A stretch of DNA of 64,000 bases from Chloroflexi bacterium OLB13 (GTDB lineage: Bacteria; Chloroflexota; Anaerolineae; Aggregatilineales; Phototrophicaceae). The first letter of the stretch is position 1. Every line of letters begins with the position of its first letter. The stretch lies in the NCBI GenBank assembly GCA_001567485.1, contig JZRA01000047.1, positions 1 to 64,000 on the forward strand, read 5' to 3'. Both the position numbers and the translations under genes were made by a program. Below are positions 2,374-23,677 of this stretch, in pieces. A model generated the notes under the pieces. That model had not been told where the DNA came from, searched no databases, and was given only the letters and a program-made list of their open reading frames with translations.

Positions 2374-3348
2374 ATGAACCTCGGGTCATTACGACGCGTA
2401 CCGTTACGGGAAGTCTGGAGCAGCGAGTCAGCCGACTTCACGCCGTGGCTGGCGCAAGAAGAAAACCTCAAACTTCTCGGCGACACCCTCGGGCTCGATT
2501 TGGCGCTGGAGGCGACCGAGCAGCAGGTCGGGCCGTTCCGCGCCGACATCGTCGCCAAAGACACCACGGACGGAAGCTTCGTCCTGATCGAAAACCAGCT
2601 TGAACGGACGGATCACAGCCATCTCGGCCAACTGCTCACGTACGCGGCGGGGCTGTCGACGGTCACGATCGTGTGGATCGCCGAACGGTTCACCGACGAA
2701 CACCGGGCGGCACTCGACTGGCTGAACGAGGTCACGGCGCAGGACATCGGCTTCTTCGGGCTGGAGATCGAACTGTGGCGCATCGGAAACTCGCCCGCCG
2801 CGCCGAAGTTCAACATCGTCAGTCAGCCGAACGAGTGGGTAAAGACGGTATCCAAGGCGCGGTCGGAGACCCCCTTGTCTGACATTCAGCAGCTTCAGCT
2901 TGAGTTCTGGACGGCATTCAAGGAATACTTGCTTGAACAACGGTCGCCCCTCAAAGTCTTGAAGCCGGCAGCTCAGAGCTGGACATCAATCCCGATTGGC
3001 CGATCGAATTTCTATGTGGAGGCTGTCATCAGAGCCAAGGAATCGATGGTCACGGTTCAGCTTGACCTTTACGGATCAGACGCGAAAGGGCACTTCCGTA
3101 GACTGCTGCAGAATCGAACGGCCATTGAGAGTGCAATTGGACAGCCCCTGGCGTGGAACGAGAGGCCAGATAGGAAGACGAGTGCAATTGCACTGGATAT
3201 GCACAACGTCGATGCGTCGGATCACAGTCGATGGCCGGAGATCTTTGCGTGGTTCCACACATATCTTGCAGTGTTTGAGAAAACCTTCCGGCCGATCGTG
3301 AAATTGCTAACGCCGCTTCCACCGCCTGACGACGAGAGCGACGCATGA
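2374..3348 (+). CDS. DUF4268 protein with PD-(D/E)XK-like N-terminal domain
   Basis: 324 residues from ATG 2374, with AAAGGA 6 nt upstream. The N-terminal half (about 45-160) holds a nuclease-like core: FRADIVAKD, then VLIENQLERTDHSHLGQLL, matching the D...E-x-Q pattern and the DHSHLGQLLTYA signature of DUF4268 proteins. The C-terminal half (about 165-310) is the DUF4268 domain. These proteins are often found near type I restriction genes and mobile elements; their activity is not established. Its stop overlaps (ATGA, 3345-3348) a stub resembling the start of an HsdR gene, which fits that context. Family call good, function unknown. Confidence 0.8.
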   Translation: MNLGSLRRVPLREVWSSESADFTPWLAQEENLKLLGDTLGLDLALEATEQQVGPFRADIVAKDTTDGSFVLIENQLERTDHSHLGQLLTYAAGLSTVTIVWIAERFTDEHRAALDWLNEVTAQDIGFFGLEIELWRIGNSPAAPKFNIVSQPNEWVKTVSKARSETPLSDIQQLQLEFWTAFKEYLLEQRSPLKVLKPAAQSWTSIPIGRSNFYVEAVIRAKESMVTVQLDLYGSDAKGHFRRLLQNRTAIESAIGQPLAWNERPDRKTSAIALDMHNVDASDHSRWPEIFAWFHTYLAVFEKTFRPIVKLLTPLPPPDDESDA

Positions 3349-4025: not shown

Positions 4026-6323
4026 CTACTCGTCCCACCACTCCTTTGGTGGTGGTGTTGTACGCCGGCTTTCGGAACTCGCTACCGCGGATTCGCCAAG
4101 CGAAGACGGTGGGGGGACATACCTAGGGGGCGGCAACTCGGGTACGCCACGAATGCTGTTCAGAAGCCCCTCCGGTAAGCTGTGTCCCGTTGATGGCAAG
4201 TACTCTTCCACGAGATTCGTTATGATCGGTCGCCTTCCCGCGTGCGTCACCGCGGCAGCAGACAACTTGACGAGGGCGGATCTGTCCCCTGCAGCAAGTC
4301 GCTGGAATGCCCCCATCACCTCGACTGTAGGATTGAGCAGCATCTCCGCAATAAAGCGCGAGGCAGCAGCTGGCTGACCTTCACTTGCATTTGCGCTCGG
4401 TTTCTGTGTCGTGGCGCCAATGAAGACCGACTTACGCGCCCGCGTCAGCGCAACATAGAAGAGTCGTCTCTCATTACTTATTGCGTCTGACGACGGAGGC
4501 GAAGTGATTAGCCCCCGGGTATCGAAGATCTCCTCTTCGCTCGTGAAAAGGCAGGGCATATAGCCCTCCTCACAATCTGGAATGAACACATAATCGAATT
4601 CCTCACCCTTCACCCGGAAGACGGTGGTCATCAGAATGACCTTCTCGTCAGGCAATCCTTGTGCCGGATCCAAGCGGTGAATGTGGCGCAGGAAGTCCTG
4701 TGGTGTCATCCTGAGCGACTCCGCATAGGAGCAGAACGTAGCCACGGCCAGTTTGCGATCCTCTGAATGCTCACCCGCACCGTAAAAGTTGTTGAAGTGC
4801 TCGTAGTAATCAACCATCTTCACAAGCCACTGAAGGAGGTTGCCGGCATTCAGAGATGGCTCCGTCAGAATTCGTTCATGGAGACGTTCGAGTAACGTCT
4901 TCAACTCACCAATTCGTTCGCGCGATTGCCGGGTCAATGGGGAATCATTGGAAGACTCGACATAGTTCATGAATTCATGCAATGAACGAGAACCGGCCCA
5001 AGATCGCGCCTTGTCCAGATGATCTCTCGAGATCCGGCGATTTGGCACATTGACGATGCTCATGAGACGCTTGAACTTGGCATCGTCATCAAGCGGCGCG
5101 TCGAGATCGATCGACACCCGGAGGTATTCGAGCAGAACCTCGATCTCGCGTCGCTTGAAGAACGGTGCGCGACCAAGAACACGGTACGGTATCTTGTTAG
5201 CAAGGAACGCTGCTTCAAGTCCAATGGACTGTGCATACATCCGGAACAGGACTGCGATGTTGGCAGGATCGATAGTCTGTTTGGCGAGTGCTTTGACTTG
5301 TTGCGCCAACTCGTTGTTGACGTCAACCTGGTTCGCGGCGTCACTGTGGTGGAGGCTTATTCCTGTATGGAGTGCTGCCTTGTGCGCAATCAAGCGCTTA
5401 TCGACCCGAGTCGGGTTCAGAGAGATTACGTTTTGCGATACCTGAGCGAGCACAGGGCCGAACCTGAATGTTCGGGACAGTGTGTAATCCACGACGGGCT
5501 TGTTTGAGAACGCCTTGCCAAACTCCTTTATGATGTAGTTCGGCCGCGCGCCACGCCATTCGTAGATGGTTTGGTCGTCATCACCGACAACCATGACGTC
5601 GGCAGTATCGCCTGCGATGAGTTCGATCAGCCTTTGCTGGCCGTAATTCACATCCTGATACTCATCCACGATAACGACCGAGGACCGGCTCAGGAGCTGG
5701 TCGCCCAACCCGGATTTTCTTTCCAGCAGGCCGACGGCGTAAGGCACAAAATCGTCGAATGTGAGGGCATTCTTCTCGAGACGTAGCCGTTCGAACTCAG
5801 TGTATACCGATGGCAAATACTGATTTCGTCGATGCCCAGCACGTTCAGGCGTGATGAGCGAACCCTTCCACAAGCTGATGCTCTCGAGCGCATCATCTGG
5901 ATCTACCATCTCGGGCGGACCTGCGCGCTGTTTCTCGAGATTCTGTATGGCTCGGTGAACTGTCCTTCGGACCAGTTCCTCCTTGTCGTCGCCCCATACC
6001 TCGCTCATGGACGCCATCCACCCACGTTGTGACGCAGTCGAAAGGAGTCTGTATGCGAACGAATGAAATGAATCGACGCTAGGGCGCCGATTCTCTGGCA
6101 GAACTGCCGAGAGTTTATCTCTGAACTGCGCTCGCGCTCTCTTGTTGAACATTAAGATCCGGATCGAAGCAGGTGCCATGCCGAGCGCGTCGACGAGGTA
6201 CTTGACTCGCTGCACCATCGTCGTTGTCTTGCCAGATCCCGCGACAGCCAGTACCCGGGCATGCCGACCAAGCGGGTGCTTTACAACGCGCTCCTGTTCC
6301 GGGGTCAATGTTTCCGAACTCAA
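4026..6323 (-). CDS. UvrD/PcrA-type superfamily 1 DNA helicase
   Basis: 765 residues from ATG 6323. Visible SF1A motifs: Q-motif region LTPEQERVV, Walker A AGSGKT (residues 28-33), motif II VDEYQDVN (Walker B with DEYQ), motif III GDDDQTIYEWRGA, motif V FRVKGEEFDYVF, motif VI ERRLFYVALTRAR. The family translocates 3'-5' on single-stranded DNA using ATP, in repair or, in islands, in defence. The length is typical of UvrD-like helicases, without an extra nuclease domain. The start overlaps the stop of the HIRAN gene (ATGA, 6320-6323), so the two are probably translationally coupled and work together. Confidence 0.93.
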   Translation of the reverse strand: MSSETLTPEQERVVKHPLGRHARVLAVAGSGKTTTMVQRVKYLVDALGMAPASIRILMFNKRARAQFRDKLSAVLPENRRPSVDSFHSFAYRLLSTASQRGWMASMSEVWGDDKEELVRRTVHRAIQNLEKQRAGPPEMVDPDDALESISLWKGSLITPERAGHRRNQYLPSVYTEFERLRLEKNALTFDDFVPYAVGLLERKSGLGDQLLSRSSVVIVDEYQDVNYGQQRLIELIAGDTADVMVVGDDDQTIYEWRGARPNYIIKEFGKAFSNKPVVDYTLSRTFRFGPVLAQVSQNVISLNPTRVDKRLIAHKAALHTGISLHHSDAANQVDVNNELAQQVKALAKQTIDPANIAVLFRMYAQSIGLEAAFLANKIPYRVLGRAPFFKRREIEVLLEYLRVSIDLDAPLDDDAKFKRLMSIVNVPNRRISRDHLDKARSWAGSRSLHEFMNYVESSNDSPLTRQSRERIGELKTLLERLHERILTEPSLNAGNLLQWLVKMVDYYEHFNNFYGAGEHSEDRKLAVATFCSYAESLRMTPQDFLRHIHRLDPAQGLPDEKVILMTTVFRVKGEEFDYVFIPDCEEGYMPCLFTSEEEIFDTRGLITSPPSSDAISNERRLFYVALTRARKSVFIGATTQKPSANASEGQPAAASRFIAEMLLNPTVEVMGAFQRLAAGDRSALVKLSAAAVTHAGRRPIITNLVEEYLPSTGHSLPEGLLNSIRGVPELPPPRYVPPPSSLGESAVASSESRRTTPPPKEWWDE

Positions 6324-6742
6324 AGCTCATCCTCCAGGTTCGGCATGGCTTTCGCCGCGGTGTTGGACTGGGCAGGCAGCTGAAACCGTATCTTCAGACC
6401 ATGAGAGTAGTCGGGATTGTCACCGCCCAGATGAGCGATGACGATCGCATTGACGGGTGCGCCGAGTTGGTCAAACCGCGAAGCGAGTTGTGCAGCAAGG
6501 TCTTTCGCCAGAAACCCAACCTGAACCCCATTGAGGGTTTCGACCCGAATCGCGTTACGATCGTAGCGGTTCGCTGGATCGCGTCGCAACAGCAGCCGGT
6601 CGTTTGCCTGGATACTCCTGACAACCTGCTGGCGCCCCTCGAACGTGACGCCAACCACGTGAACATCATATGTGTCCACGCCTGTCGATTGCTGCTTAGC
6701 CAGCCTCTGATGTCTCTGAAAGAACGACTCGCCACCGTCCAT
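6320..6742 (-). CDS. HIRAN domain protein
   Basis: 140 residues from ATG 6742. Residues 20-120 carry a HIRAN domain: VVGVTFEGRQQVV, LLLRRDPANRYDRNAIRVE and GVQVGFLAKDLAAQLA are the conserved blocks (the RxPxNxYDxNAI segment is diagnostic). HIRAN domains bind 3' ends of single-stranded DNA and are usually fused to Rad5/HLTF helicases; here it is a separate protein whose stop overlaps the helicase start by 4 nt. The likely role is to guide the helicase to DNA ends. The role is inferred from the fold and the gene overlap. Confidence 0.85.
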   Translation of the reverse strand: MDGGESFFQRHQRLAKQQSTGVDTYDVHVVGVTFEGRQQVVRSIQANDRLLLRRDPANRYDRNAIRVETLNGVQVGFLAKDLAAQLASRFDQLGAPVNAIVIAHLGGDNPDYSHGLKIRFQLPAQSNTAAKAMPNLEDEL

Positions 6743-6863: not shown

Positions 6864-7535
6864 CTAGTCCTCGAACCCGTAGTGCTTGAACTTCAGCGTG
6901 CGGCTATTTTCACTCACTGTGCGAATCGTCCCGTCGTCGAGGCCGGTCGGGCGATCGGCGCTGATCTCGACCGTGATCCGCACATTCGTCCCGGTCAGGC
7001 TAATCAGCCGCTGAATGACCTCGTCGACGATCGTCGCCATATCCTTATTGCCACGCCGCGGATCAAGCGTCACCGTGCCGTGATAGCGCGTGGTCAGCTG
7101 GGCCTCGGTCTCGACCAGAGCCGCCGGTGTCTCTCCACCGCCGAATAGCGGAGTTGGTCGCTCGGTGGGTTCTGGCGCGCGTTCGTTCGCTTCGCGTTCC
7201 AATTGATCACGCGCCGCGTCCGGTCGGACGATCACCGACCTGTCGTCGAAGTACACGCGGGCCGGGTTATCGAATGCCAAACCCTTATGATTGCCCTGCG
7301 CATCAACCATGGTCGCGTAGCCGAACGGCGCATCCCAGCGCACGACGCCGTCGGCGATGGTGTCGATCAGCACGTTCTCGTCGTATAGACGCGGCAGGTA
7401 GCAGTAGGACTTCAAGTACTCCCACAGCTTCTTGATCGAAAGGTGCGGATTGCTGACTAGGTTGATAGCGTGTTCCTTGGGGACTTGAGTATAAGGATGA
7501 GTGATACCCACAGGAGTCAGGGGCCAAGCATACAT
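6864..7535 (-). pseudogene. C-terminal remnant of a DUF499 (PglY/BrxC-like) ATPase
   Basis: 223 codons from ATG 7535. The final 60 residues (TLDPRRGNKDMATIVDEVIQ, later VRTVSENSRTLKFKHYGFED) match the characteristic C-terminus of DUF499 proteins as I know it, and the middle part (LWEYLKSYCYLPRL...ADGV) fits their last ordered domain. Full DUF499 proteins are near 1000 residues with a P-loop ATPase core, none of which is present. The upstream neighbour starts with the Swt1-type HEPN domain that normally forms the DUF499 N-terminus, so this looks like the tail of a gene whose centre was replaced. It may still be translated. Confidence 0.65.
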
Positions 7536-7561
7536 AGTGAGACGAGTGCACCCGTGTCCTG

Positions 7562-8869
7562 CTACCGTGTGGGCGTGACGCCGGACATGACGAATGCCAT
7601 TTCGATCATCTTCGAGTCGTTGCCGGCAAACAGCATGCGCGCTTCATCGCGCCAGTTGTGGTATCCAAACTCGCGGAAGATACCCGCATACCTGGTCGGC
7701 AGCACGGAGGACATCCGGAACAATTCCTGGACGAACGGGTTTGAAATCTCGCTCTCGGAGGTGAGCCCCGTCCAACTCGTCGGATCGGTCACCGTCTGGC
7801 CGAGTGGATTTGGCCCGATGTAGATGTTCTCCACCAGCACGTTGCCGTCCGGCGTCGACATGTTCATGATGCCCTGCGCCACCGGGCCCGGATCGCCGCC
7901 GTTGTATTCCCCGTCGGTCAGGTGACAGACCATCGGTGCCGGGCTGTTGGGCGGCAGATTGGGGATCTCCGCCAACAGAATGCGTTCCGCTTCCAGGAAG
8001 GCCGACTCGGTGTTCGTCATGTTCTGCGGCGAGAGATTCGGGACGCCCTGCTGCGCGAACTCGTCCACGGTCTTGATTCCGCCGAGCACATCCCACACCT
8101 GACCGGAATAGGCGAGCAGCGCGATGCGATATCGCGGCTGGATCGACGTGCCGCGCGTTGACCGTGCAACCATCGATATCGCGACGTCTTCGAGGCACTT
8201 CGACACGAGTTCGATCCTACTGATTCGGTTGCCTTCGGGCATTACGATATCCGGTGTGCCCATGGAACCGCTTACGTCGAGCAGATAAATGATGAGGGCC
8301 GGAGTCTTGCTGGTCGCTGCGGCGGTGTACGACCCGGGTCTCGGCGTAGGCGCGGTGGTCGTCGGTGCGCCGCCGAGGTTACCGGTGTTCGACCGCTTCA
8401 CCGACTGCTTCTGCTCGGCCTCAAAGCGCAGGCGCAACAGGTCAGTGGCGATGTCATGGCAGATAGCCGCTTCCTTCGAAGCGCCGACCGCTTCGAGCAG
8501 CCGCGTGGCGATGGAGGCCGCTTCATACGCCTGATCGTTCGTGAACGGCTTCTGGTGCGCCCAATTGTTGCGCGCGTCTGAGAGGATACCGACGTAGCCG
8601 CGCTCTGACTTGCCGAGCGTTGCCTTGAACACCTGCTCCCAGCGCCGGCTCATGGCATTGAGACAAGCCTGCACGTCCATCTCGCTGACCGCGTCCTCGG
8701 CGGTGCGTGCCGCCAGCCCGCCGTGGGTGCCGGAGGTCAGCGCGTCGCTGATCTCGGCGAGCATCGTGCTCTTAAAGACCCGCTCGTATTCGGTGACGAT
8801 GTACGGCGCCAGCCCGGCCTTCAGGGCATCCAGCAGTTCACTGACACGATCACGATTTGATTTGGCCAT
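7562..8869 (-). CDS. Swt1-type HEPN domain fused to a vWA (TerY-like) domain
   Basis: 435 residues from ATG 8869; GTG 8878 would add 3 residues. Residues 1-155 resemble the Swt1-like HEPN domain that begins DUF499 proteins, with a HEPN motif R100-NNWA-H105 (R-x4-H), the residues that cut RNA in active members. A Thr/Pro linker (160-179) leads to a vWA domain (180-435) with an intact MIDAS D198-x-S200-x-S202 (DVSGS) and the later TDGEYNGGD site. The vWA half differs from the separate vWA gene at 15546-16334 at only 9 of 256 positions by eye. It follows the nuclease gene with 8 bp between stop and start. It is a chimera: an RNase-like head on a metal-binding signalling module. Confidence 0.85.
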   Translation of the reverse strand: MAKSNRDRVSELLDALKAGLAPYIVTEYERVFKSTMLAEISDALTSGTHGGLAARTAEDAVSEMDVQACLNAMSRRWEQVFKATLGKSERGYVGILSDARNNWAHQKPFTNDQAYEAASIATRLLEAVGASKEAAICHDIATDLLRLRFEAEQKQSVKRSNTGNLGGAPTTTAPTPRPGSYTAAATSKTPALIIYLLDVSGSMGTPDIVMPEGNRISRIELVSKCLEDVAISMVARSTRGTSIQPRYRIALLAYSGQVWDVLGGIKTVDEFAQQGVPNLSPQNMTNTESAFLEAERILLAEIPNLPPNSPAPMVCHLTDGEYNGGDPGPVAQGIMNMSTPDGNVLVENIYIGPNPLGQTVTDPTSWTGLTSESEISNPFVQELFRMSSVLPTRYAGIFREFGYHNWRDEARMLFAGNDSKMIEMAFVMSGVTPTR

Positions 8870-8877
8870 GACTGACA

Positions 8878-10083
8878 CTACTCTTTCGGGCTTACGTTTG
8901 TCGCTTCAAGCCCGAGTGTCTCTAGGAACTTGAAGAGGTCGTTGATGCCGCCCTCACGGGATTTGTGCGCTTCCATGTAAACTCCGTCAATTTTGACTGG
9001 TTTCAGGAATGCATTGCCTCGCGGATGTATCGGCTCAGCGGCAATGAGATGTCGCCCATAACCAGTGGACATCGGAAGCTGTAAGTTCTGGAGGTAATCG
9101 CCCTCCTTCAGGAACTCAAGCGTCTTTGTATATAGCTCCGGAATTGATGTCGCTTCGATTGTCTTGCCATCGATCTTTATCCTAATGATTGGTTTCTTTC
9201 GCTGGATTCGTCTTCCAGTTGTGCTCGGCTCACTAAGATCTACGTCCAACCGTAGCAATTCAATTAGCGCATCGATTGCGTTGCCGTGTTTGCCGTAGAT
9301 CTTGTGAGCAAGTTCGACTTCCCTGTCCGTTGTTGCCATGCGTCGGTTACCTTTCTTTGGATTGGGATACTTCAATGTCTTCGTATACTCATCAAGAAAG
9401 ACCCTGCCGAACTCAGAGAGCCTGCCACTCTGCATGCACGGTGCAATCAAATCATCGTAAAGTGTCTGAAAATCGATAACGATCCACTGATTGCTACCAA
9501 AAAGATGGAAGCGATTGTCACCAAGATTCCAGTCAGGCGACACAAACACCGGATACAATACTTCACGGTTCTTCTTGTCCTGTTCCCTTTCCCGAATATA
9601 CGCGATGTATTTCGCGCATTGATCCTGATCGATCTTTGAATTCACCTTCATCTCAATAAGGATCTTCACCGACATTCGCAAGTGGACAATACCTTCGACG
9701 AACACATCGATCTTACCTCTGTTGTTCTTTCCTGATGCTATCGACGAAATTGTGACCTCTTGCAGGTCAGACTCATTGGGTCTAGCTCGCGCGGCGGATA
9801 GATCACCGTCTATGGTGATATCGCTGAGCGAAACCTTGCGATTTGCCTTGGGGTCTTCTTTGTTCATCATGGTTAAGATGAACCGGCGAAGCGGGAAGTC
9901 GCCCAAGCCGTGGTTGCTCGAGGGATTTAGCAACCAACCTAGCGTAGCGCTATGCCACGTCTCTGTATGAGTTCGCCCTACAACGTTGAAGAAGCTTGTC
10001 TCTGCTTGCATATCCTCAAAATCGGCAAAGAGAGGATCGTTGATGAGATGCATTATCGCACTGTGGCGATTGACTTCGGACAT
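8878..10083 (-). CDS. PD-(D/E)XK nuclease superfamily protein (PDDEXK_4-like)
   Basis: 401 residues from ATG 10083, behind a strong ribosome site (GGAGGAG). The N-terminal ETWHSATLGWLLNP block and the catalytic series D126 (GKIDVFVEG), E144-x-K146 (LIEMKVNS) and Q155 (DQDQCAKYI) are those of PD-(D/E)XK nucleases of the PDDEXK_4 type, which occur singly in defence islands. The C-terminal 150 residues form a second region (RIKIDGKTIEA...) I do not recognise. It lies 18 bp after the DUF1156 remnant and directly before the HEPN-vWA gene, so the two are probably cotranscribed. The catalytic residues are intact, so an active DNase is plausible. Confidence 0.8.
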   Translation of the reverse strand: MSEVNRHSAIMHLINDPLFADFEDMQAETSFFNVVGRTHTETWHSATLGWLLNPSSNHGLGDFPLRRFILTMMNKEDPKANRKVSLSDITIDGDLSAARARPNESDLQEVTISSIASGKNNRGKIDVFVEGIVHLRMSVKILIEMKVNSKIDQDQCAKYIAYIREREQDKKNREVLYPVFVSPDWNLGDNRFHLFGSNQWIVIDFQTLYDDLIAPCMQSGRLSEFGRVFLDEYTKTLKYPNPKKGNRRMATTDREVELAHKIYGKHGNAIDALIELLRLDVDLSEPSTTGRRIQRKKPIIRIKIDGKTIEATSIPELYTKTLEFLKEGDYLQNLQLPMSTGYGRHLIAAEPIHPRGNAFLKPVKIDGVYMEAHKSREGGINDLFKFLETLGLEATNVSPKE

Positions 10084-10101: not shown

Positions 10102-10310
10102 CTACTCAAACAACCCCGGCTGCCGGCGCGCATCGCCGGACTCGGCGGCGGTGCGCTGCTGGGCCGCGACCTCGTCGATGCCCGACCAGCTCACCACCAG
10201 CGCGTTGTAGTCCCGCGCATGATCCGCCCAGCCCTTTGGCTTGCTACACTAATAACTTCCAGCGGCAGCGCGACTTCGATCAGCTTCTTGCGGGGGGCAC
10301 TCGATGGCAT
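10102..10310 (-). pseudogene. Gutted DUF1156 DNA methylase gene (N- and C-terminal ends only)
   Basis: From ATG 10310 the minus strand encodes MPSSAPRKKLIEVALPLEVI, the typical start of DUF1156 adenine methylases (RKKLIEVALPLEAI). The similarity stops after about 22 codons. In another frame, 10245 to 10105 encodes KPKGWADHARDYNALVVSW...RRQPGLFE and a TAG at 10102, which fits a DUF1156 C-terminus. Some 900 internal codons are therefore missing and the frames no longer join. The last 117 bp (10120-10236) recur at 16584-16699. Known context: DUF1156 and DUF499 genes are neighbours in anti-phage islands, and a DUF499 stub lies 2.5 kb downstream. Confidence 0.7.
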
Positions 10311-10357: not shown

Positions 10358-11683
10358 CTACCATTGAACGGTTGGTCCCCACTCGCTGGTCACATGATCG
10401 CCAACGGCTCGGACTCGGAAGTAGTATGCCGTATTCGGTCGGAGAGTCGTGATGTCGAGGGATGACGATTGTGACTCCACGATCCACGATTGATCGAAAT
10501 CCGGATCGGCACTGTACTCCACTTCGTATAGCTGGGCGCCTTCAACCGGCAGCCAACGCAGCGAGGCCCTAGTGCTGCCAGCCATGCGGAACGGCGGATT
10601 AATCGGCATCAGGCGTGGTGCGCGCAGTACCGTCGGTGCGCTTTGCCCTCCAAGCGATCGAAATGCTGTGAACGGATTGGAGGGTGTCACGATGGTAAGC
10701 GGGCGCCAGCCGGACACGGGCCAGGCGATGTCGGCATCGGTGAGCTTCAAGCGGGTACCGGCTCGTGAGACGGCGCTGAGCGCGGCATGCCAGTCGGCAA
10801 ATGTCGGGCAGTCGGCCAAGGTCGCGGATTGCCATGCCGCGGTAAACAGATCGACCAACTGCTTCGCCACGTGTGCGGGTACATCGGGCATCTTCGACAG
10901 GACTTGGGTCGCCAGAGCATACACCGGACTCTTCGCGTCCTGCAGCGTATCGGCGTCGAATACGTGCCCGTCTTCCGAGGCGGCATCACGTGTGCGATCA
11001 TCGTGCCACAACAGCGCCTCGACGATCAGTATGGCGCCGGCGAAACGATCCGCATCGGCTGACCAGAGGCCCGAACCAGCCGTCTGATGGGCGTAACCTG
11101 CCGTTCCGGCGGGTACCTGCGCCGGTCGTGGGAGCCCCGGCGCGTAGATGTCTTCTACGTCGATGAGCTGGAAATCCAGCGTATCGGGATCAATCAGGAC
11201 GTTGCCACACGCGATGTCGCAGTGCGCAATCGATCGCTTCTCGAGCTCGACCATGACCTCAACGATGTTGCGGGCGACCTCGACACTCACGCGGGGAACG
11301 ACCGGCGCCTTGTTCTGCACGATATCCGCCCACGTGCGCCCCTGTGACCACGGCATCAATACCGCGAACTCGAGATCGGGTTCCTGTTTGACAGCGTCAG
11401 CGCCGTACCCGGTCTTTTCGAGAACTTGTCGTTCGCACACCTCCATGCCTTTGATCGACGCAAACTGACGAAGCTCCTTGGTGTTGTTGACGAGCTCGGG
11501 CTTGCGATGGCCGGGCTTGAACACCTTAAGCGCAAACGGCTGCGCGTTCGATTTCTGCTCAATCTTGAACACCATGCCTTTGGCGCCTTCTTGTTGGAAG
11601 GGCATCTTGGGTGCCGCCGGATGCGGCGCAACCGTGAATATCTCACCGGCAATGGTTAAGGTGTCGTGGGGCCTAACCTTCAT
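10358..11683 (-). CDS. Cytoplasmic protein kinase with C-terminal FN3 domain (kinase 2 of cassette)
   Basis: 441 residues from ATG 11683. Kinase domain about 10-300: ALKVF lysine K53, catalytic loop HCDIACGN (D156, N161), and a DVED sequence (175-178) in place of DFG, followed by PAGTAGYAHQT as the activation-loop end. Residues 355-441 form one fibronectin type III domain (LRWLPVEGAQLYEVEYS...YYFRVRAVG). No signal peptide or membrane segment is seen. The gene overlaps kinase 1 by 11 nt, so it is translated in step with it. It belongs to the family in TerY-P triads, where kinase, PP2C and vWA protein act together; the partners are inferred from gene order. Confidence 0.85.
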   Translation of the reverse strand: MKVRPHDTLTIAGEIFTVAPHPAAPKMPFQQEGAKGMVFKIEQKSNAQPFALKVFKPGHRKPELVNNTKELRQFASIKGMEVCERQVLEKTGYGADAVKQEPDLEFAVLMPWSQGRTWADIVQNKAPVVPRVSVEVARNIVEVMVELEKRSIAHCDIACGNVLIDPDTLDFQLIDVEDIYAPGLPRPAQVPAGTAGYAHQTAGSGLWSADADRFAGAILIVEALLWHDDRTRDAASEDGHVFDADTLQDAKSPVYALATQVLSKMPDVPAHVAKQLVDLFTAAWQSATLADCPTFADWHAALSAVSRAGTRLKLTDADIAWPVSGWRPLTIVTPSNPFTAFRSLGGQSAPTVLRAPRLMPINPPFRMAGSTRASLRWLPVEGAQLYEVEYSADPDFDQSWIVESQSSSLDITTLRPNTAYYFRVRAVGDHVTSEWGPTVQW

Positions 11684-14675
11684 TCTGATTGCCTTCGGTC
11701 TCTGTATTGATGATCACGGTGTTCGATTTCCGACCAGCCTGCGCCTCGATCTCGGAGTACGGCGTAACGGACACGCTGTACACGCCGCCAACAACATCCG
11801 AGTCGCTCAGCGTGAATTCGTTCGTGTCCCCATCGAGTCGAACCGTGTTGGAGAAGGGCCCACGAATCGACAAGTCGTAGTGCGTGGCGCCCGAAACGCT
11901 CGACCACGCGATGTACCAGCCCCCCGCGATGCGTTCAACGTTCAGTGTTGGCGTCGACTTCGGATTCCAGACTATGTACCTTCGACTGTCGTGCCTGGCC
12001 GTCTTCGGTTCAACGACTCTGGGCTCGTCGATTGGATGCTCGGGTCTCTCGGCGGCTTCGCTGACCGGTGGTGCCTCCGTGGCGGGTTTTTCGAACCGGA
12101 TTTCGTGCATGTCGCTGAGGTCGCCGGCGAAGTCGTTGCTGTCGAATGGCTCCACCTGAAACACGTGTACGGTGTCCCAGCTGCGCTCGCTGATGAACGT
12201 GCGCCACGGTTGGGCACACGCCCATTTGTTGAGCGGCGTCAACGTGTTGTCATCTCTGCGGAGTTCATGCAATACATAGCGACTGGCGCCTTCGACTTCC
12301 TCCCACTCCAGCGTGAACTTCGCGCCAGCGGCAACCGTGTCCGGTGCGTGCTTGAACGACGGTTTCTGCAGGGCAAGGCGTATGGTGGTGCCCTGTGACG
12401 ATGCGATGGTTCCCTGGTCGCTTTCCGCGTCGACGTAGACCTCATACGTGCCTGGCGCGAAGGTTTTCGAGAAACGGGTGTCTGTCACCGTTTCGATGTG
12501 GGAATGCTCGCCGGCATCTTCAGTGTTACCGACCAGCACCGTGTATTTCGTGGCGCCCAGAACAGGCTGCCATGTCACGTCCAAGCGGAGTCCAGTCGTC
12601 GAGACACCCAGCTGGAGACTGCCCGCAGGGATCTCCACTTCATATTCAGCGCTTGGCGCGCTGTGTTGATTTTTCCGCACCGCCTGAACCGTGAATACGT
12701 ACCGACCGGCTGGAAGGTACAGGACGGCCTTCTCCGTAAACGACGCAACGGTGCCAGACTTCTTCGCGCTCCGCCACTCGATCATGTAGCTATCGGCTTC
12801 GGACACCTTATTCCAACGGAGCGTTACCGAGCCGGGAGCCACCTCGATCTTCTTGCGTGCCCACTGCGGACTCTTGGGCGCAAGCTTGAAGTCGTCGACG
12901 ATCGGTTTGCCCGTCACGCTGTGCGTGGGGTCCACTCCCGACACTTTGGCAGTGAAATGGTCGAAGTCGAGCGAAATGTGCAGTCGCGCCAGGTCCAGCC
13001 GCGTATCGGTCGTGACTTGCTGGTAGCTCGTACCGTCGGGGAGGGCGATGTCGACCTGATAGGAACGGGCATTGGGAACGGATGACCACACCAACGTGCC
13101 ATCCTCAAACGCGATCTGCTTGGGTGCGGGCAATGGAACACGAACGTCAAACGCGGACGTGCGGGTAACGAGGTTGACGGAGCCGAAGCCACCGACCTGC
13201 GACTGCTTAAGGTGCAGCCTGTACGCGCCGGACTTTAGCGCACTGTAGGGAAGCGACAGAATGTACACGGTTTGCTCGCTTCCACCGCTCGCGCTACTCA
13301 TGGATACCTTGACGCTCTCTTGACTTCCGCCTGAGCTGAACACTTGGGGTTCGGAGAATCCGACTTTGCTATCGCATTCCCATCGTAGGCTGAAGGCGTC
13401 GCTGTTGCTTAACCGTTGGAAGTTCGGCGGGTATGCGACCATGACGGCGAACGGCTCGCCCCACCGGCCGCCCAACGATAGTGCCGCCGGCCGAAGTCGA
13501 ATGTGATGGACCACCCCCGGCTTGGCATCCTCAACCCAAGTGAACTGCCCGTCTTGCGTCCGGCCACTGGCGACCAGATCGCTGAATGTCAGCGCTTTTG
13601 CGACCTGATACTCAATGTCAGCATTTTTGGCATCCGGAGTCAGCGTAACCACAAATGTGTTGTCCACGTACTCCACGTCGACGATCTTGGGCACACCAAC
13701 AAGCGGCGTCCGCGGTATCGATGTAATGGTCGATAGTCCGCGCGCAGTCATAGCGTGGATTGCCGTGTGCCATTCGGCGATAGACGGGCATGCGTCGAGT
13801 GTCTCTGCGCGCCACGCTCGGGCAAACAGATCCGCGACGTCAGGCGAGCCAACCCTGAGGGCCGCCAGTAGGAGGCGGTACTTCTCATTCTGCTCGGAGG
13901 GGGACGCGAGATCGTTGTCATCAAAGTATGACGATGCGCCGTCGCCGGCCGCAGCACGAACTTCACCGAGATGCCAGGTGAGCATCTCAGCGAGCAATAT
14001 GGCGCTGGCAAACCGATCACCGTGCGGGCTCCACTGTCCCTGTTGTCGGCTGGTGCGATGCTGATAGCCCGACGTGCCTGCGGGTATTTCGCCGGCTTCG
14101 GGACTGGGCAAATATGGGACGAAGCAGTCCTCGATATCGATTAGCTCCACACCACCTCGCTGCAAGTCATTGAGGTCGATCATGATGTTCGAGCCTGCGA
14201 TGTCACAATGTGCGAAGCCGGCCATCTCCAACTCGAGCAGCGTCTGGCTCGTTCGACGGGCGACCTGCAATCCCGTATCAGCCTTATATGGGCGTTCTTC
14301 ACCTTTGGTCCAGAAATTCTCCCAGTTGTCACCAGATATCCACGGCATCAAGACCGAATGATCGAGATCAGGATACTCGGTCACTAGCCTCGCTTGTGTC
14401 ATCCTATATATCGCGATGCGCTGGGCAACCAGTATGCCTTCGACTTTCCAGTCGTTCAGGACACCACTGACGACCGATACTCGGCCGCTCCGATGTCCGG
14501 GTGCGAAGACCTTCAGCGCCCAGTCCTGCCCCTTCGGATCCTTAAGGTGGTAGACCGTGCCCTTCTTGCCTTGCGCCTGATAGACCATCTTCAGCCGCAC
14601 TTGCTGCGGGTGCGGCTGAAATCTATAGACTTGGCTGTTGATCTCTATCGAGTCGCCGACCTGGGGTTTGAACAT
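11673..14675 (-). CDS. Protein kinase with a long tail of FN3-like repeats (kinase 1 of cassette)
   Basis: 1000 residues from ATG 14675 with AGGTGG upstream. Kinase domain about 15-320: ALKVF K55, catalytic loop HCDIAGSN (D158, N163), DIED (180-183) replacing DFG, then PAGTSGYQHRTSRQ. The remaining ~680 residues contain at least five FN3-like units, each with a W-x5-A-x-x-Y core: WSSVPNARSYQVDI, WNKVSEADSYMIEW, WQPVLGATKYTVLV, WEEVEGASRYVLHE and WSSVSGATHYDLSI. No signal peptide is present, so these act inside the cell, probably as a scaffold. It lies 11 bp after PP2C and overlaps kinase 2. Both kinases share the same altered DFG, so this is a family trait, not decay. Confidence 0.87.
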   Translation of the reverse strand: MFKPQVGDSIEINSQVYRFQPHPQQVRLKMVYQAQGKKGTVYHLKDPKGQDWALKVFAPGHRSGRVSVVSGVLNDWKVEGILVAQRIAIYRMTQARLVTEYPDLDHSVLMPWISGDNWENFWTKGEERPYKADTGLQVARRTSQTLLELEMAGFAHCDIAGSNIMIDLNDLQRGGVELIDIEDCFVPYLPSPEAGEIPAGTSGYQHRTSRQQGQWSPHGDRFASAILLAEMLTWHLGEVRAAAGDGASSYFDDNDLASPSEQNEKYRLLLAALRVGSPDVADLFARAWRAETLDACPSIAEWHTAIHAMTARGLSTITSIPRTPLVGVPKIVDVEYVDNTFVVTLTPDAKNADIEYQVAKALTFSDLVASGRTQDGQFTWVEDAKPGVVHHIRLRPAALSLGGRWGEPFAVMVAYPPNFQRLSNSDAFSLRWECDSKVGFSEPQVFSSGGSQESVKVSMSSASGGSEQTVYILSLPYSALKSGAYRLHLKQSQVGGFGSVNLVTRTSAFDVRVPLPAPKQIAFEDGTLVWSSVPNARSYQVDIALPDGTSYQQVTTDTRLDLARLHISLDFDHFTAKVSGVDPTHSVTGKPIVDDFKLAPKSPQWARKKIEVAPGSVTLRWNKVSEADSYMIEWRSAKKSGTVASFTEKAVLYLPAGRYVFTVQAVRKNQHSAPSAEYEVEIPAGSLQLGVSTTGLRLDVTWQPVLGATKYTVLVGNTEDAGEHSHIETVTDTRFSKTFAPGTYEVYVDAESDQGTIASSQGTTIRLALQKPSFKHAPDTVAAGAKFTLEWEEVEGASRYVLHELRRDDNTLTPLNKWACAQPWRTFISERSWDTVHVFQVEPFDSNDFAGDLSDMHEIRFEKPATEAPPVSEAAERPEHPIDEPRVVEPKTARHDSRRYIVWNPKSTPTLNVERIAGGWYIAWSSVSGATHYDLSIRGPFSNTVRLDGDTNEFTLSDSDVVGGVYSVSVTPYSEIEAQAGRKSNTVIINTETEGNQNEG

Positions 14676-14686
14676 AGACCCACCTG

Positions 14687-15526
14687 CTAAAGCAGTTGCG
14701 GTTGACCCAGATCATTGGTGAACTCGATCTGGATGTACGTGATGTCGTCGGAATCTTCGCGCTTCTGCAGCATCTCGATGTGTTCCTGCAATTCGGCATC
14801 GGACAGCCACCATAGCTCGGCATCCTTCAGTCCATCTGAGTGCGCGATGATGTGCCTGACGCGGTTCATGGTCTCCGGATCGTCGATGACGTGGGGGACG
14901 ATTTCACCGATCACGCCGCGTTTGGACGACCAACGAGAGTCGGTGTCTGGTCGGTAGGTGTAGAGCGAGTTGAAGTCGCCATCCAGCACAGAAAGGCGGA
15001 GGTCGCCACAGCTGGCAAAGGACAACTTGCCTTGCGTCATACGACCCCCAATGAACATGGTCTGGCTGCCGACTTCGCGCTGACGGTTCAGCGCGCTTCG
15101 CATAAGTGATGGAATGTCGTCGGGGATCGGTTCGTCATCGATTGGGTTGACGACTTCAGGCGGCATTTCCTTGAGCCGCTTCCACAGGTTATCGCCGAGC
15201 TGTACCGCGGAAATCGTGTCTCCCCATTTGCCCCACATCGTATTGCAGAGCCAATCGCCCATCGTTCGGGCGGCAACATCGCCGCGGTACGAGCTCCCGA
15301 CGCCATCGCAGATCGCAAACACGAACTTCGGATGTCGTTTGCTGTCTACGCCAAAGCGGAGCTCCAGGTAGTCCTGTCCGTTTTGCTGCGTGGTCAACGA
15401 TTCTGTAGAAGGCACGTACCCGAGGCGATACCGCCAATACATTGACGGCAGATCGGTCCACGGGCGTACATCTAAATGAGACTGTCGGAATTTGATCGTG
15501 TCGGTTAACGCCGTCGAGGGTGCCAT
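14687..15526 (-). CDS. PP2C-type Ser/Thr protein phosphatase
   Basis: 279 residues from ATG 15526 (a TTG at 15535 would add 3). PP2C motifs in order: AICDGVGSSYRGD (D74-G75 metal site), MGGRM/ASCGDLRL (GDxR), IAHSDGLKD (SDG) and DSDDITYIQ (final DD). These metal ligands predict an active Mn/Mg-dependent phosphatase. It lies 19 bp after the vWA gene and 11 bp before kinase 1 on the same strand. In the TerY-P triad a phosphatase of this type opposes the kinase, and the same role is likely here. An RDGVGGG-like motif of classical PP2Cs is replaced by DGVGSS. Confidence 0.88.
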   Translation of the reverse strand: MAPSTALTDTIKFRQSHLDVRPWTDLPSMYWRYRLGYVPSTESLTTQQNGQDYLELRFGVDSKRHPKFVFAICDGVGSSYRGDVAARTMGDWLCNTMWGKWGDTISAVQLGDNLWKRLKEMPPEVVNPIDDEPIPDDIPSLMRSALNRQREVGSQTMFIGGRMTQGKLSFASCGDLRLSVLDGDFNSLYTYRPDTDSRWSSKRGVIGEIVPHVIDDPETMNRVRHIIAHSDGLKDAELWWLSDAELQEHIEMLQKREDSDDITYIQIEFTNDLGQPQLL

Positions 15527-15545
15527 GGATGGCAACTCTGTCCGT

Positions 15546-16334
15546 TTACCGGGTCGGCGTGACGCCGGACATGACGTACGCCATCTCGATCATTTTCGAG
15601 TCGTTGCCGGCGAACAGCATGCGCGCTTCATCGCGCCAGTTGTGGTATCCGAACTCCCGGAAGATGCCCACGTAGTTGGGCGGCAGTACGGAGGACATCC
15701 GGAACAGCTCCTTGACGAACTGGTTTGAAATCTCGCTCTCGGAGGTCAGCCCCGTCCAACTCGTCGGATCGGCCACCGTCTGGCCGAGCGGATTCGGCCC
15801 GATGTAGATGTTCTCTACCAGGACGTTGCCGTCCGGCGTCGACATGTTCATGATGCGCTGGGCAACGGGCCCCGGATCGCCGCCGTTGTATTCCCCGTCG
15901 GTCAGGTGACAGACCATCGGCGCGGGGCTGTTGGGCGGCAGATTCGGGATCTCCGCCAACAGGATGCGCTCCGCCTCAAGGAAGGCTGACTCCGTGTTGG
16001 TCATGTTCTGCGGCGAGAGGTTCGGGACGCCCTGCTGGGCGAACTCATCCACGGTCTTGATTCCGCCGAGCACATCCCAGACCTGGCCGGAATAGGCGAG
16101 CAGCGCGATGCGATAGCGCGGCTGGATCGACGTGCCGCGCGTCGACCGTGCGACCATCGATATCGCGACGTCCTCGAGGCACTTCGACACAAGCTCGATC
16201 CGACTGGTACGGTTGCCTTCGGGCATCACAATGTCGGGTGTGCCCATCGAACCGCTGACGTCAAGCAAATAGATAATGAGGGCCGGAGTCTTGCTAGTAG
16301 CCGCTGCCGTGTACGACATGGACTTTAATCCCAT
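15546..16334 (-). CDS. vWA domain protein (TerY-like), first gene of the kinase cassette
   Basis: 262 residues from ATG 16334; ATG 16319 (MSYTAAATS) is an equally possible start, since neither has a strong ribosome site. It is almost entirely one vWA domain with MIDAS DVSGSMG, a later conserved Thr/Asp in LTDGEYNGGD, and no signal peptide. It lacks the HEPN head of its near-identical copy at 7562-8869 (9 differences in 256 residues, counted by eye). It heads the vWA-PP2C-kinase-kinase series with short gaps. In TerY-type systems the vWA protein binds metal and scaffolds the phosphatase and kinase. Confidence 0.87.
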   Translation of the reverse strand: MGLKSMSYTAAATSKTPALIIYLLDVSGSMGTPDIVMPEGNRTSRIELVSKCLEDVAISMVARSTRGTSIQPRYRIALLAYSGQVWDVLGGIKTVDEFAQQGVPNLSPQNMTNTESAFLEAERILLAEIPNLPPNSPAPMVCHLTDGEYNGGDPGPVAQRIMNMSTPDGNVLVENIYIGPNPLGQTVADPTSWTGLTSESEISNQFVKELFRMSSVLPPNYVGIFREFGYHNWRDEARMLFAGNDSKMIEMAYVMSGVTPTR

Positions 16335-16556: not shown

Positions 16557-16706
16557 TCATTCCCCGTCCCCGAACATGCGCGTCTGCCGGCGTGCCTCGC
16601 CGGACTCGGCCGCCGCGCGCTGCTGGGCTGCGACCTGCCGATGCCCGACCAGCCCACCACCAGCGCGTTGTAGTCCCGCGCATGATCCGCCCAGCCCTTG
16701 CGCTCG
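16557..16706 (-). pseudogene. Second DUF1156 C-terminal fragment, frameshifted
   Basis: The minus strand encodes RKGWADHARDYNALVVGWS, then needs a one-base correction to read AAESGEARRQTRMFGDGE before TGA at 16557-16559. It matches the fragment at 10102-10245; the shared DNA is 117 bp (10120-10236) against 116 bp (16584-16699), with one indel. Together the two copies form direct repeats around the kinase cassette. The junction with the plus-strand TPR-like gene is at about 16706. Confidence 0.65.
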
Positions 16707-16709
16707 CAG

Positions 16710-17673
16710 ATGTTGTACAGACAAACCGATCTACAACTGCTGGAACAGCGATGGTCACGGGAGTTCCAGCCTTTACCTGATAGTGCCGCATTACGGGGCA
16801 GTCAGCTGGTCCATCTCGTGTGTTCGCTCGTTCACTTCTTTGATGCGGTGCGGCTCAATCGGGCACGCGACCGCTATGTGCGTCTCGCCATCAACGAGGC
16901 AACCCACCTCCGGAGATTCGCTATACGGTCTGGGCGGATTGGAGAAGCAAGCTACTGGCTGAAACTCGAGATGCTGCTACGAGTCGACGGTTTCGGATTT
17001 AACCTAGTGAAGCTGCAGGATCGGACAAGTTCTCAGACTGTGCTCGAACAAGCGGGCCGCGACATTGAGGAGCAAGGTGGATTGCAAGACAGCGATCTAC
17101 TTAGCACTTGGGTGCTCGCTCATCTCCATCTCGTGCCAGTCCGTCTCGAAGACAATGCGCAGGCTGGGCGTGATCGCGCGCAATCCGTTATGGACTCGGT
17201 CGCCAAATACGAGGAACAAGTCAATCCGTTTGTTCGCATCCGCTATCTGAATCAGCGTGCCCAACTCGAGCTATTACAGGGAAGACCCGATACCTCTCTG
17301 GCTTGGCTCAATCGCGGCGAGCGACTGTTGGTCACCATGCCCGTTATCTCCCACACTGAACAGATCGACCACTATTTCGCCCGACGCATAGGAAGTCCCG
17401 CACTGTTTAGGCTACTCGGCGGACTCTCCGGAAGTTACGACACTGTTCGACAAGCTCTCCCAACGTCACATTAACTCGCATTCGATTGGCGGCACCTGGA
17501 TGGACGGCTATCTCATCCTCGCCCGGATGTTGAAGGAGTGCGGGCGCAACCTTGAAGCCGTTCAACGTGCTCGTAAGGTAGAAGATGCGCTGAACCGTTT
17601 CCGGGACCACGATCGTGAGCTAGAAAGCGATGGTCCGAGACGGACCGTGATCGCCTCAATCGTCGGCGCGTAG
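16710..17673 (+). pseudogene. TPR-like helical protein, 5'-truncated and frameshifted
   Basis: From ATG 16710 a frame runs to TAA near 17472 (MLYRQTDLQLLEQRW...). A second frame then continues the same kind of sequence from about 17440 (FDKLSQRHINSHSIGGTW...ARMLKECGRNLEAVQRARK) to TAG 17671, so one base has been lost or gained near 17450. The protein is rich in helices with an A-x-x-x-G-R-x-x-E periodicity like the TPR tails of regulators or of XRE-type proteins. The N-terminus appears cut off at the DUF1156 junction. I cannot name the family. Confidence 0.5.
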
Positions 17674-17960: not shown

Positions 17961-19061
17961 CTAACATCCAGCAGCGCCGAGCCTGTGCTCGACCTTCGTC
18001 ACCGCAACCGATCCTTCGTTGCCAAGAACCTCGCGGCTTGCGAACGCCACCAGATGCCGCTGTGTGCTGGTGAGGACCGAATACGTGCGCGGATCCCCGA
18101 CCTCGATTGTCAGAACACCGTCCTCGAGACTGACGGCGGTCGCCATCCGGCTGAGTCGGCCCAGCTGCGGCATCCGGTCGCAGATTGTCCGCCACGCGAC
18201 CGCCGCGGGATCCGACCTGTTCGGTGCTGCGCCAGCGTCGCGCACAAGATCGGGCGGCGGCCAGACGATGTCCGTCGCTGTGTGAGCGGCTTCGCTCTGC
18301 GGGACAGGAATCGGTTCAAACCTGATCGGCAAGATCTTCCGTTCGCCGGCGCGACCAGTCTGCTTCCACGCGCGCAGGATCCGGCGCACGTAAGCGAGGC
18401 TGCGCTTCTCGTAGATCACCGCTTCTTGAATCGCGTCGCGAACCCATCCGGAACCGCAGTCCTTGACCAGGTCTGTGACGACCTGCATGGCCATTGCAGT
18501 CAGCGCGCCGATGTTTTCCTGATAGTCACTAAGCACGGATTGAAGCTCAGGATCGGCGGATGCGGGCGCGGGCGCGGGCTCGCGCGCGTTCTGGATCTCT
18601 TGAGTCTTATTTCTCTGAGTCTGATTCTTTGATTCTGGTTCGGGTCCAAAATCTGCACCACCGTGGTTCAGAATTTGCACCACCGGTAGTGCAGGATCTT
18701 TACTACCGTGGTCCAAACCGTGTACCAGGGGTGGTACAGCAATTGCACCACGTGGTGCATAGATTTGACTCCCCTCGCCGCAGATCGTGTACCGGTTGCT
18801 AGTCAGATCGCCCTGACCGCTCGGCTGCGCCTGCTTGCACAGATAGCCGAGCTCGATGAGCGCCTTCACTGCGCTGATCGCCGACGTACGGCTGGTGTTG
18901 GCGTCGCGAGCGATCGTGGCATAGCTCGGGAATGCGGACGCGGTGTCGCTGCCGAGGCGTCGGGCGATGACGGCATAGATGCGCAGCTGGACCGCGGTCA
19001 GCCGCGGATCGAGCAGGACGGAATCCGGGATGCGCGTGAACGGAATGGTCGTCGCGCTCAT
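17961..19061 (-). CDS. Plasmid-type replication initiator: N-terminal winged HTH plus DnaD-like domain
   Basis: 366 residues from ATG 19061. Residues 5-95 form a winged helix (LTAVQLRIYAVIARR, then SYATIARDANTSRTSAISAV) of the HTH_36 type found in plasmid and element replication proteins. After a low-complexity linker, residues about 180-240 (YQENIGALTAMAMQVVTDLV...VRRILRAWKQ) look like a DnaD/DnaB-like domain that loads helicase. The last 80 residues (WRTICDRMPQLGRL...GVLTIEVGDPRTY) resemble the DnaA N-terminal domain, an unusual addition. Its ATG overlaps the stop of a 44-residue ORF. With parAB 0.4 kb upstream it forms a replicon-like unit. Confidence 0.7.
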   Translation of the reverse strand: MSATTIPFTRIPDSVLLDPRLTAVQLRIYAVIARRLGSDTASAFPSYATIARDANTSRTSAISAVKALIELGYLCKQAQPSGQGDLTSNRYTICGEGSQIYAPRGAIAVPPLVHGLDHGSKDPALPVVQILNHGGADFGPEPESKNQTQRNKTQEIQNAREPAPAPASADPELQSVLSDYQENIGALTAMAMQVVTDLVKDCGSGWVRDAIQEAVIYEKRSLAYVRRILRAWKQTGRAGERKILPIRFEPIPVPQSEAAHTATDIVWPPPDLVRDAGAAPNRSDPAAVAWRTICDRMPQLGRLSRMATAVSLEDGVLTIEVGDPRTYSVLTSTQRHLVAFASREVLGNEGSVAVTKVEHRLGAAGC

Positions 19062-19192
19062 GACGCACCGCCGATCGGCGCGGTGTTCTCAGATCGATCG
19101 TGGCGAGCGTTCGGTTCGCGATTCGTCCAGTTCGGCACGATCGGACCATCAGATGGCAAACAGGCACGGGGCAGTAGCAGGTCGACGGACAT
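19058..19192 (-). CDS. Small protein upstream of rep, translationally coupled
   Basis: 44 codons from ATG 19192, with an excellent ribosome site (GGAGGG, 5 nt before the ATG) and a TGA that overlaps the rep start as ATGA. The peptide begins MSVDLLLPRACLPSDGPIV and has no recognised domain. The strong site and exact overlap suggest a leader peptide whose translation lets ribosomes start on rep, as seen in several plasmid copy-control circuits. The peptide itself may have no function. The coupling is visible; the role is inferred. Confidence 0.6.
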   Translation of the reverse strand: MSVDLLLPRACLPSDGPIVPNWTNREPNARHDRSENTAPIGGAS

Positions 19193-19266
19193 GTCAATCC
19201 CTCCAGCAGCAGGCAATGTGGAATAGGGGCCGCGTCGAAAAAACGCAGCGCGAATTCGGATGTCAG

Positions 19267-19295
19267 TTGCAGGAGGACAGGGGCTGTGCTACAGT
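19267..19295 (+). promoter_or_regulatory. Candidate promoter for a short antisense RNA
   Basis: TTGCAG (19267-19272), a 17-bp spacer, and TACAGT (19290-19295) on the plus strand fit a sigma-70-type promoter. It points away from rep, and a terminator ends about 70 nt downstream. Confidence 0.5.
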
Positions 19296-19322
19296 GTGAT
19301 TGTCTAGGTCACATGTAGCACA
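19285..19322. repeat. Inverted repeat over the antisense promoter
   Basis: TGTGCTACAGTGTGA (19285-19299) and TCACATGTAGCACA (19309-19322) are inverted copies with one base missing in the second. The repeat covers the -10 of the candidate antisense promoter, so it could be an operator for Rep or ParB, or a stem in a transcript. Confidence 0.55.
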
Positions 19323-19368
19323 GTGTTTCCCTGCCCACCTGCTTTCCTGCATGTGGGCCTTTTGTTTG
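19302..19368 (+). ncRNA. Candidate countertranscribed copy-control RNA
   Basis: A predicted transcript of about 67 nt begins some 7 nt after the TACAGT -10 box and ends in a strong intrinsic terminator. It contains no ORF and is antisense to the leader expected ahead of the small ORF and rep. This is the classic place for an antisense RNA that limits plasmid replication. It rests on promoter, length, terminator and position only; no homology is claimed. Confidence 0.45.
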
Positions 19369-19370
19369 TT
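19333..19370 (+). terminator. Intrinsic terminator of the candidate antisense RNA
   Basis: GCCCACCTGC (19333-19342) pairs with GCATGTGGGC (19349-19358), one mismatch in ten, 6-nt loop, followed by CTTTTGTTTG. It is a good rho-independent terminator for plus-strand transcription. Confidence 0.75.
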
Positions 19371-19412
19371 CAGGGCGGATCGCGTGCTCGTTTCATGCCG
19401 TTGCCTCCATAA

Positions 19413-19430
19413 TGTTTGCGCGCGCAAACA
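19413..19430. promoter_or_regulatory. Candidate parS (ParB binding) palindrome
   Basis: TGTTTGCGCGCGCAAACA is a perfect 18-bp palindrome just beyond the parB stop codon (19435). It keeps the outer TGTTT/AAACA halves of the chromosomal parS consensus around a GCGC core. No T-run follows on either strand, so it is not a terminator. Confidence 0.5.
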
Positions 19431-19434
19431 ATTT

Positions 19435-22505: not shown

Positions 22506-22746
22506 TTACCCACTACATGCACGGCCCGCTGGGGATGTTCGCCCAGCGCAACCCGGACGCCTCATGGGACTGGATGCTGCACGATGGGCTGGGGAGCGTG
22601 CGCGGCGTGTTCGACGGGACGCTGCAAAGTGCGGCAGAGTACGATCCGTTTGGCGACCCGATTGTCGCGTCCAGCGGCACCGCCTACGGCTTCACCGGCG
22701 CGCTGACCGACGGCAGCGGGCTGGTGTACCTACGCGCGCGGTATAC
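22506..22746 (+). pseudogene. RHS core fragment 1
   Basis: About 80 codons read as RHS repeat-associated core: DWMLHDGLGSVRGVFDG, AEYDPFGDPIVASSG, TAYGFTGALTDGSGLVYLRARY. RHS proteins carry variable toxin tips just after the YLRARY segment; here the frame leaves the family at that point. No start or full protein is present. The last 110 bp are repeated at 23561-23672. Confidence 0.65.
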
Positions 22747-23517: not shown

Positions 23518-23677
23518 GTCTACAACCCGGCGGGCCGCGTGACGACGATTCACCACCACAGCGCGGCAGAGTACGATCCGTTTGGCGAGCCGATTATCGC
23601 GCCCATCGGCACCGCCTACGGCTTCACCGGCGAGCTGACTGACGGCAGCGGGCTGGTGTATCTGCGCGATCCGCGGA
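23518..23677 (+). pseudogene. RHS core fragment 2
   Basis: Encodes YNPAGRVTTI, then SAAEYDPFGEPIIAPIG and TAYGFTGELTDGSGLVYL, so it is the same part of an RHS core as fragment 1. It has no start codon and ends in unrelated sequence before the sensor kinase gene. Confidence 0.6.

Follow-up and report, generated by a model that had tools for sequence, protein, structure and literature searches.

A HEPN-vWA gene fusion formed inside a Hma (Type-1 BREX-related) locus of a Chloroflexota genome

In the genome of Chloroflexi bacterium OLB13, a gene fusion has been made within a locus related to the Hma, or Type-1 BREX-related (BR), systems. The HEPN_Swt1 head and linker of the ATPase HmaC have been retained, the AAA+ core has given way to an entire copy of the vWA gene from an adjacent TerY-P-type triad, and the HmaC C-terminus has been stranded as a separate ORF. 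The window analysed here is a stretch of 64,000 nucleotides (contig JZRA01000047.1, positions 1 to 64,000), and coordinates refer to it unless another locus is named. Hma/BR systems are composed of a HEPN-DUF499 ATPase (HmaC), a DUF1156 methylase (HmaB), and a helicase (HmaA) (PMC3710099, PMC8565338, PMC12839542), and the HEPN domain of HEPN-DUF499 proteins has been proposed to serve as a last-resort suicide effector or RNase (PMC12839542, PMC3710099). TerY-P triads are formed by a TerY-like vWA protein, a PP2C phosphatase, and a Ser/Thr kinase, STK_OB systems included, and are proposed to act as phosphorylation-dependent switches, often alongside restriction systems (PMC11090510). The locus in the window is a gutted Hma operon that has been reoccupied by a TerY-P-type triad comprising a vWA protein, a PP2C, and two fn3 kinases.

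The fusion ORF (7562-8869, minus strand) encodes 435 aa from an ATG at 8869, with no stop codon interrupting the 435 codons; an alternative GTG start at 8878 would give a 438-aa version. Homology to HmaC extends to residue 178 and homology to the vWA protein begins at residue 179, the frame being read through the junction. At the joint, the HmaC side ends in PTPRP and the vWA side starts with SYTAAATSK, which in the standalone vWA gene begins at codon 2. The copied segment extends to the stop codon, past which the resemblance between the copies is brief. In terms of the 1,100-aa HmaC, a complete vWA ORF minus its start codon has taken the place of residues from about 179 to 905. In an AlphaFold2 model of the fusion, a helical head (residues 1-159) is joined to a vWA fold by a linker (156-179) that is disordered, with pLDDT <50. 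A first-pass annotation of this DNA, made from the sequence alone, had claimed that the ATPase core was swapped for a copy of the cassette vWA, and the alignments bear this out.

The head and linker derived from HmaC/DUF499 (8336-8869, minus strand; residues 1-178) are recognized by profile, by identity to intact HmaC, and by structural alignment with VIA-align. Residues 12-129 match the Pfam family HEPN_Swt1 (PF18731) with E=3.4e-25 and 89 bits, against a curated cut-off of 27.5, and over residues 1-178 the fusion shares 65% identity with the N-termini of 1,100-aa HEPN-DUF499 proteins of other Chloroflexota, the comparison set (L004-L006) being Aggregatilineales/Anaerolineae MAGs. The annotation had described the first 155 residues as the Swt1-type HEPN head of a DUF499 protein; both the family and the DUF499 N-terminus proved correct, but the DUF499-derived part measures 178 rather than 155 residues once the linker is included. 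The R-x4-H motif that it pointed out is present as R100-NNWA-H105, in agreement with the R-x4-6-H pattern, and both columns are invariant in 23 HEPN heads; M1, D65, F81, and L124 are likewise invariant in these heads and kept in the fusion. The distance of the fusion head to outgroup HmaCs is no greater than that of intact heads. Modelled alone, the head adopts an all-helical HEPN fold of seven helices (pLDDT 92). The top VIA-align row is AbiF bound to its ncRNA (Z 7.7, rmsd 3.5, 143 aligned residues), and the yeast Swt1 C-terminal domain (Z 7.5, rmsd 3.7, 126 aligned) and an archaeal HEPN protein (Z 6.8, rmsd 3.2, 95 aligned) are also matched. These Z values are moderate, and a Z below 8 is by itself weak for a helical bundle, but HEPN or Abi2/Swt1 proteins fill all three top rows, concordant with the Pfam match. 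Foldseek alone gave nothing significant with the head model, and a sequence search of the PDB gave no usable match.

The vWA part (7562-8333, minus strand) is identical to window positions 15547-16317 at 701 of 771 nucleotides, without gaps (91% in DNA, 96% in protein). It matches PADLOC TerY (E=1e-21) and Pfam VWA_2 (E=1.6e-5), finds vWA structures in the PDB, and keeps the motifs of the MIDAS, with DxSxS from residue 198, NMTNTE at 283, and LTDGE at 317. The donor-type copy is the standalone TerY-like vWA gene of the triad (15546-16319, minus strand; PADLOC TerY E=5e-25), whose orthologues in other families of the order are 50-57% identical and begin at the same residue. Differences between the two copies fall at first, second, and third codon positions in the proportion 7/5/58, so that 58 of the 70 substitutions are at third positions, and 9 amino-acid changes are observed where about 48 would be expected under neutrality. 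By the NG86 method dN is 0.017 and dS 0.42; the resulting dN/dS of about 0.04 spans the entire history of both copies, part of which may predate the fusion, and it gives no date for the fusion. Since some of the divergence between the copies may be older than the fusion, the low ratio was rejected as proof of a functional fusion.

Downstream of the fusion lies the orphan C-terminal piece of HmaC (6864-7535, minus strand), an ORF of 223 aa that covers HmaC from about residue 905 to its end. It matches PADLOC HmaC, a DUF499-type AAA+ ATPase, over profile positions 734-940 of 941 (E=6e-36), and from residue 29-31 onwards it is 55-57% identical to the C-termini of the DUF499 proteins of L004-L007. 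Its first 28 codons or so show no convincing alignment to DUF499, and no obvious ribosome-binding site was found for it. The ORF is still open, and its distance to outgroup HmaCs is no greater than for intact tails. That this neighbouring fragment is a DUF499 C-terminus, as had been claimed, holds from residue 29 onwards and against the same proteins that match the head. A head belonging to no HEPN family, or a fragment unlike DUF499 C-termini, would have spoken against the annotation by its own account; both points were examined and neither was the case. The AAA+ core (about 179-905) is missing from the locus, and the single PF04465 match of the genome lies elsewhere (C50:100226); one other DUF499-family gene is present in the genome, on a different contig, and is not close to the gene in the window.

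Further remains of the Hma operon are found upstream. In the intact relatives L005 and L006 the gene order is helicase, DUF1156 methylase, at least one variable spacer gene, and HEPN-DUF499. In the window, a collapsed HmaB gene (10105-10310, minus strand) has its first ~25 codons joined to its last ~44; tblastn with intact HmaB places the N-terminus at 10295-10220 and residues ~918-962 at 10236-10105. A second C-terminal scar of HmaB (16568-16720, minus strand) is frameshifted and 92% identical in nucleotides to the first over 120 nt. Only these ends remain, a complete DUF1156-type methylase being absent from the window, and queries with the HmaA helicases of L005 and L006 gave no above-chance match in it. 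The spacer position, between methylase scar and HEPN head, is occupied by a PDDEXK_4 nuclease-like gene (8878-10083, minus strand; PF14281 E=1.5e-15; PADLOC PDC-S26), which has a lower GC content (about 0.48) and stands directly before the HEPN start. Compared with Hma/BR systems, the locus preserves, in order and orientation, the HEPN head, the linker, the C-terminus of HmaC, and the two HmaB ends; on the other hand, the helicase, the methylase core, and the ATPase core are lacking, and a vWA ORF stands in place of the last. A single tandem duplication could plausibly account for the vWA copies and the methylase tails alike but is not demonstrated, the third-position divergence of the vWA copies (58/256) being greater than that of the methylase tails overall (14/128). 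The methylase tails (10105-10236 and 16581-16699) are thus less diverged than the vWA third positions, and the pair of vWA copies may predate the methylase duplication or have an origin foreign to it.

The triad itself sits between the two methylase tails, in adjacent genes on the same strand. Its vWA gene is followed by a PP2C-type phosphatase (14687-15535, minus strand), which has a weak PF13672 match, aligns to the PP2C proteins of other triads, and keeps the motifs CDGVG, SDG, and DDIT. Pfam and alignment identify a 1000-aa Ser/Thr kinase with fn3-like repeats (11673-14675, minus strand), with the catalytic K, HCD..N, and D kept, and a 441-aa Ser/Thr kinase with one fn3 domain (10358-11683, minus strand; Pkinase E=3e-8, fn3 E=1e-7). 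PADLOC matches in the triad are TerY and STK_OB. The kinases carry fn3 domains instead of a C-terminal zinc ribbon or OB-fold, and the triad is for this reason regarded as a TerY-P variant. All cassette genes follow one another closely on a single strand, terminator-like sites are no commoner than expected by chance, and no Rfam match was found in 1-22 kb of the window. The same triad is found in other families of the order without HEPN, and no HEPN gene adjoins the triad in the other triad loci read. Related families harbour an enlarged triad with a PP2C-like protein of ~930 aa (L077:10092-12878, plus strand; L079:7807-10611, plus strand), the C-terminal part of which resembles the fn3 region of the large kinase of the window.

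Three further arrangements invite comparison. Like TerY-P triads, the vWA, PP2C, and kinase genes of the window are adjacent on one strand, but there are two kinases with fn3-like repeats, and the vWA exists in a second copy, joined to HEPN. Type II/III-A CoCoNuTs comprise a HEPN protein, CnuE, together with TerY-P, and their vWA is duplicated in III-A (PMC11090510). The locus in the window also combines a HEPN domain with TerY-P and has a duplicated vWA; however, its HEPN is of the Swt1/HmaC type, with the vWA itself as its fusion partner, and a Pfam and PADLOC scan of part of the ORFs found no McrB-type GTPase or McrC-type partner (CnuB/CnuC) domain. Finally, in the same GTDB family, two genomes encode proteins of ~300 aa in which a HEPN_Swt1 head is fused to an FHA domain (L028:1501-2412, plus strand; L029:1024-1914, minus strand). 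In these a Swt1-type head is likewise joined to a phospho-signalling domain, with FHA in place of vWA and heads that are only ~28-33% identical. FHA reads phosphothreonine, and the HEPN_Swt1-FHA proteins are a parallel phospho-reader fusion. In the same family, a 503-aa protein (L023:1141-2649, minus strand) has HSDR_N, of Type I restriction, ahead of a Swt1-type HEPN head.

The check for homologues of the chimera with the same fusion point, which had been suggested with the annotation, returned none. A full-protein search of 98 genomes of the family and 154 of the order found no other HEPN-vWA fusion, and none was apparent from the vWA side in 400 genomes of the phylum and 396 of the class, where the profile comprised 247 vWA columns and fusions were detectable only through the length of the open frame. 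Peptide patterns run against GTDB contigs returned 7 loci, all of them head-only matches read as full DUF499 ORFs. Among plasmids no record covered 80% of the query and no fusion was found, nor was a HEPN-vWA fusion found in phages or IMG/VR. The fusion is so far unique to one Chloroflexota genome, and no description of HEPN-vWA or HEPN-FHA fusions was found in the literature searched, which covered few subscription papers.

In HmaC, the ATPase complex would hold and release the HEPN RNase, and the simplest reading is that the vWA takes over this role, holding HEPN and then releasing it on a signal. Through its MIDAS face, the vWA would bind a component of the triad (the kinases, the PP2C, or the standalone vWA) and this binding would keep the HEPN domains apart or inactive. 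Upon infection, a change in phosphorylation would allow HEPN domains to pair and cut RNA, leading to dormancy or death, and the flexible linker (156-179) would permit the switch. RNase activity, triad binding, phospho-gating, and an antiphage role are predicted properties of the fusion, and the prospect that it is a rewired, phospho-gated suicide RNase under triad control is considered about even. The annotation had held that an RNase-like effector was linked to the phospho-signalling module; the link is real as covalent fusion and gene adjacency, while a phospho-gated circuit is a prediction. As a matter of judgement, the fusion is somewhat more likely than not to be in use by the cell. The in-frame junction, the HEPN fold, the unaccelerated head, the intact HEPN and MIDAS residues, the catalytic motifs of the triad, the selection signal in the vWA, and the neighbourhood count in favour of the gated-RNase reading, as do the precedents of HEPN-DUF499, of CnuE with TerY-P and duplicated vWA genes in CoCoNuTs, and of the Swt1-HEPN-FHA proteins; the occurrence of the fusion in one genome only, the wrecked operon, the possibility that part of the selection signal predates the fusion, and the lack of HEPN beside the triad in the other triad loci read count against it.

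The main rival to a phospho-gated RNase is that a dying Hma locus was rearranged and by chance left open a HEPN-vWA frame that the cell does not use or has ceased to use. This stays alive because methylase and helicase, whose loss the annotation had not noticed, are gone and the host gene lies in a wrecked operon: the methylase is scarred twice, with one copy frameshifted, the HmaC tail is stranded with no obvious ribosome-binding site, and a single genome is concerned. An unused frame would not be expected to run for 435 codons without a stop, to retain all the invariant HEPN and MIDAS residues, to show a strong purifying signature across the vWA copies, or to carry a head that is not accelerated; a very recent fusion would, however, be compatible with all of these. 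A mere relic is a serious possibility, yet one that is doubted rather than favoured.

The fusion might also work otherwise than as a triad-gated killer, either as a decoy or dominant-negative HEPN subunit tuning another system or with its vWA targeting HEPN to another ligand. vWA domains are general protein-binding modules, HEPN acts as a dimer, so a mixed dimer could block, and the HmaC tail ORF is also open and not accelerated. Such a role is nevertheless held to be unlikely, as the fusion gene lies in one gene train with the triad to which the vWA belongs, and the intact R-x4-H would be dispensable for a decoy. Two sequences misjoined in a draft assembly of 148 contigs would be a trivial explanation, and the 91% identical vWA copies share exact runs of up to 50 nt, such that their 3' parts could be swapped; any such swap would leave the fusion in place. 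No 12-mer at the HEPN/vWA joint is shared elsewhere in the window, which makes a repeat-driven misjoin there unlikely, the frame is preserved exactly, and the head, the tail, and the ends of the methylase all derive from a single Hma operon and keep its order, as a genuine locus would. An assembly artefact is regarded as very improbable.

On a wider scale, and with a little less than even confidence, Swt1-type HEPN heads may be cargo for varied control modules: the AAA+ ATPase in Hma/BR, FHA in related Chloroflexota, and here, in place of the ATPase core, the triad vWA, giving a phosphorylation-gated suicide RNase. If true, a defence system would have been caught mid-conversion into another through replacement of its control domain. 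With both ends of the old gene in place, the locus is a record of a defence ATPase that was gutted and whose probable toxic head was passed to another regulator. TerY-P triads adjoin many defence systems and their output is mostly unknown; the fusion to HEPN names a candidate output, which is open to test with one protein and two point mutants.

Other genes of the window lie on both sides of the cassette. Just downstream of the HmaC tail, a UvrD-type helicase and a HIRAN-domain gene overlap by 4 nt (4026-6742, minus strand), the helicase resembling RT-associated and GajB helicases in PADLOC. A DUF4268 protein (2374-3348, plus strand) is a strong candidate for PADLOC PDC-S11 (E=2e-122). A DnaD/HTH_36 replication-type gene, ParB, and ParA follow one another next to the defence cluster (17961-21452, minus strand); they form a plasmid-like backbone, and perhaps an integrated element, adjacent to housekeeping genes of the chromosome. 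A 112-bp direct repeat (22625-22736 and 23557-23668, 91% identical) lies near ORFs resembling PIN-type toxins.
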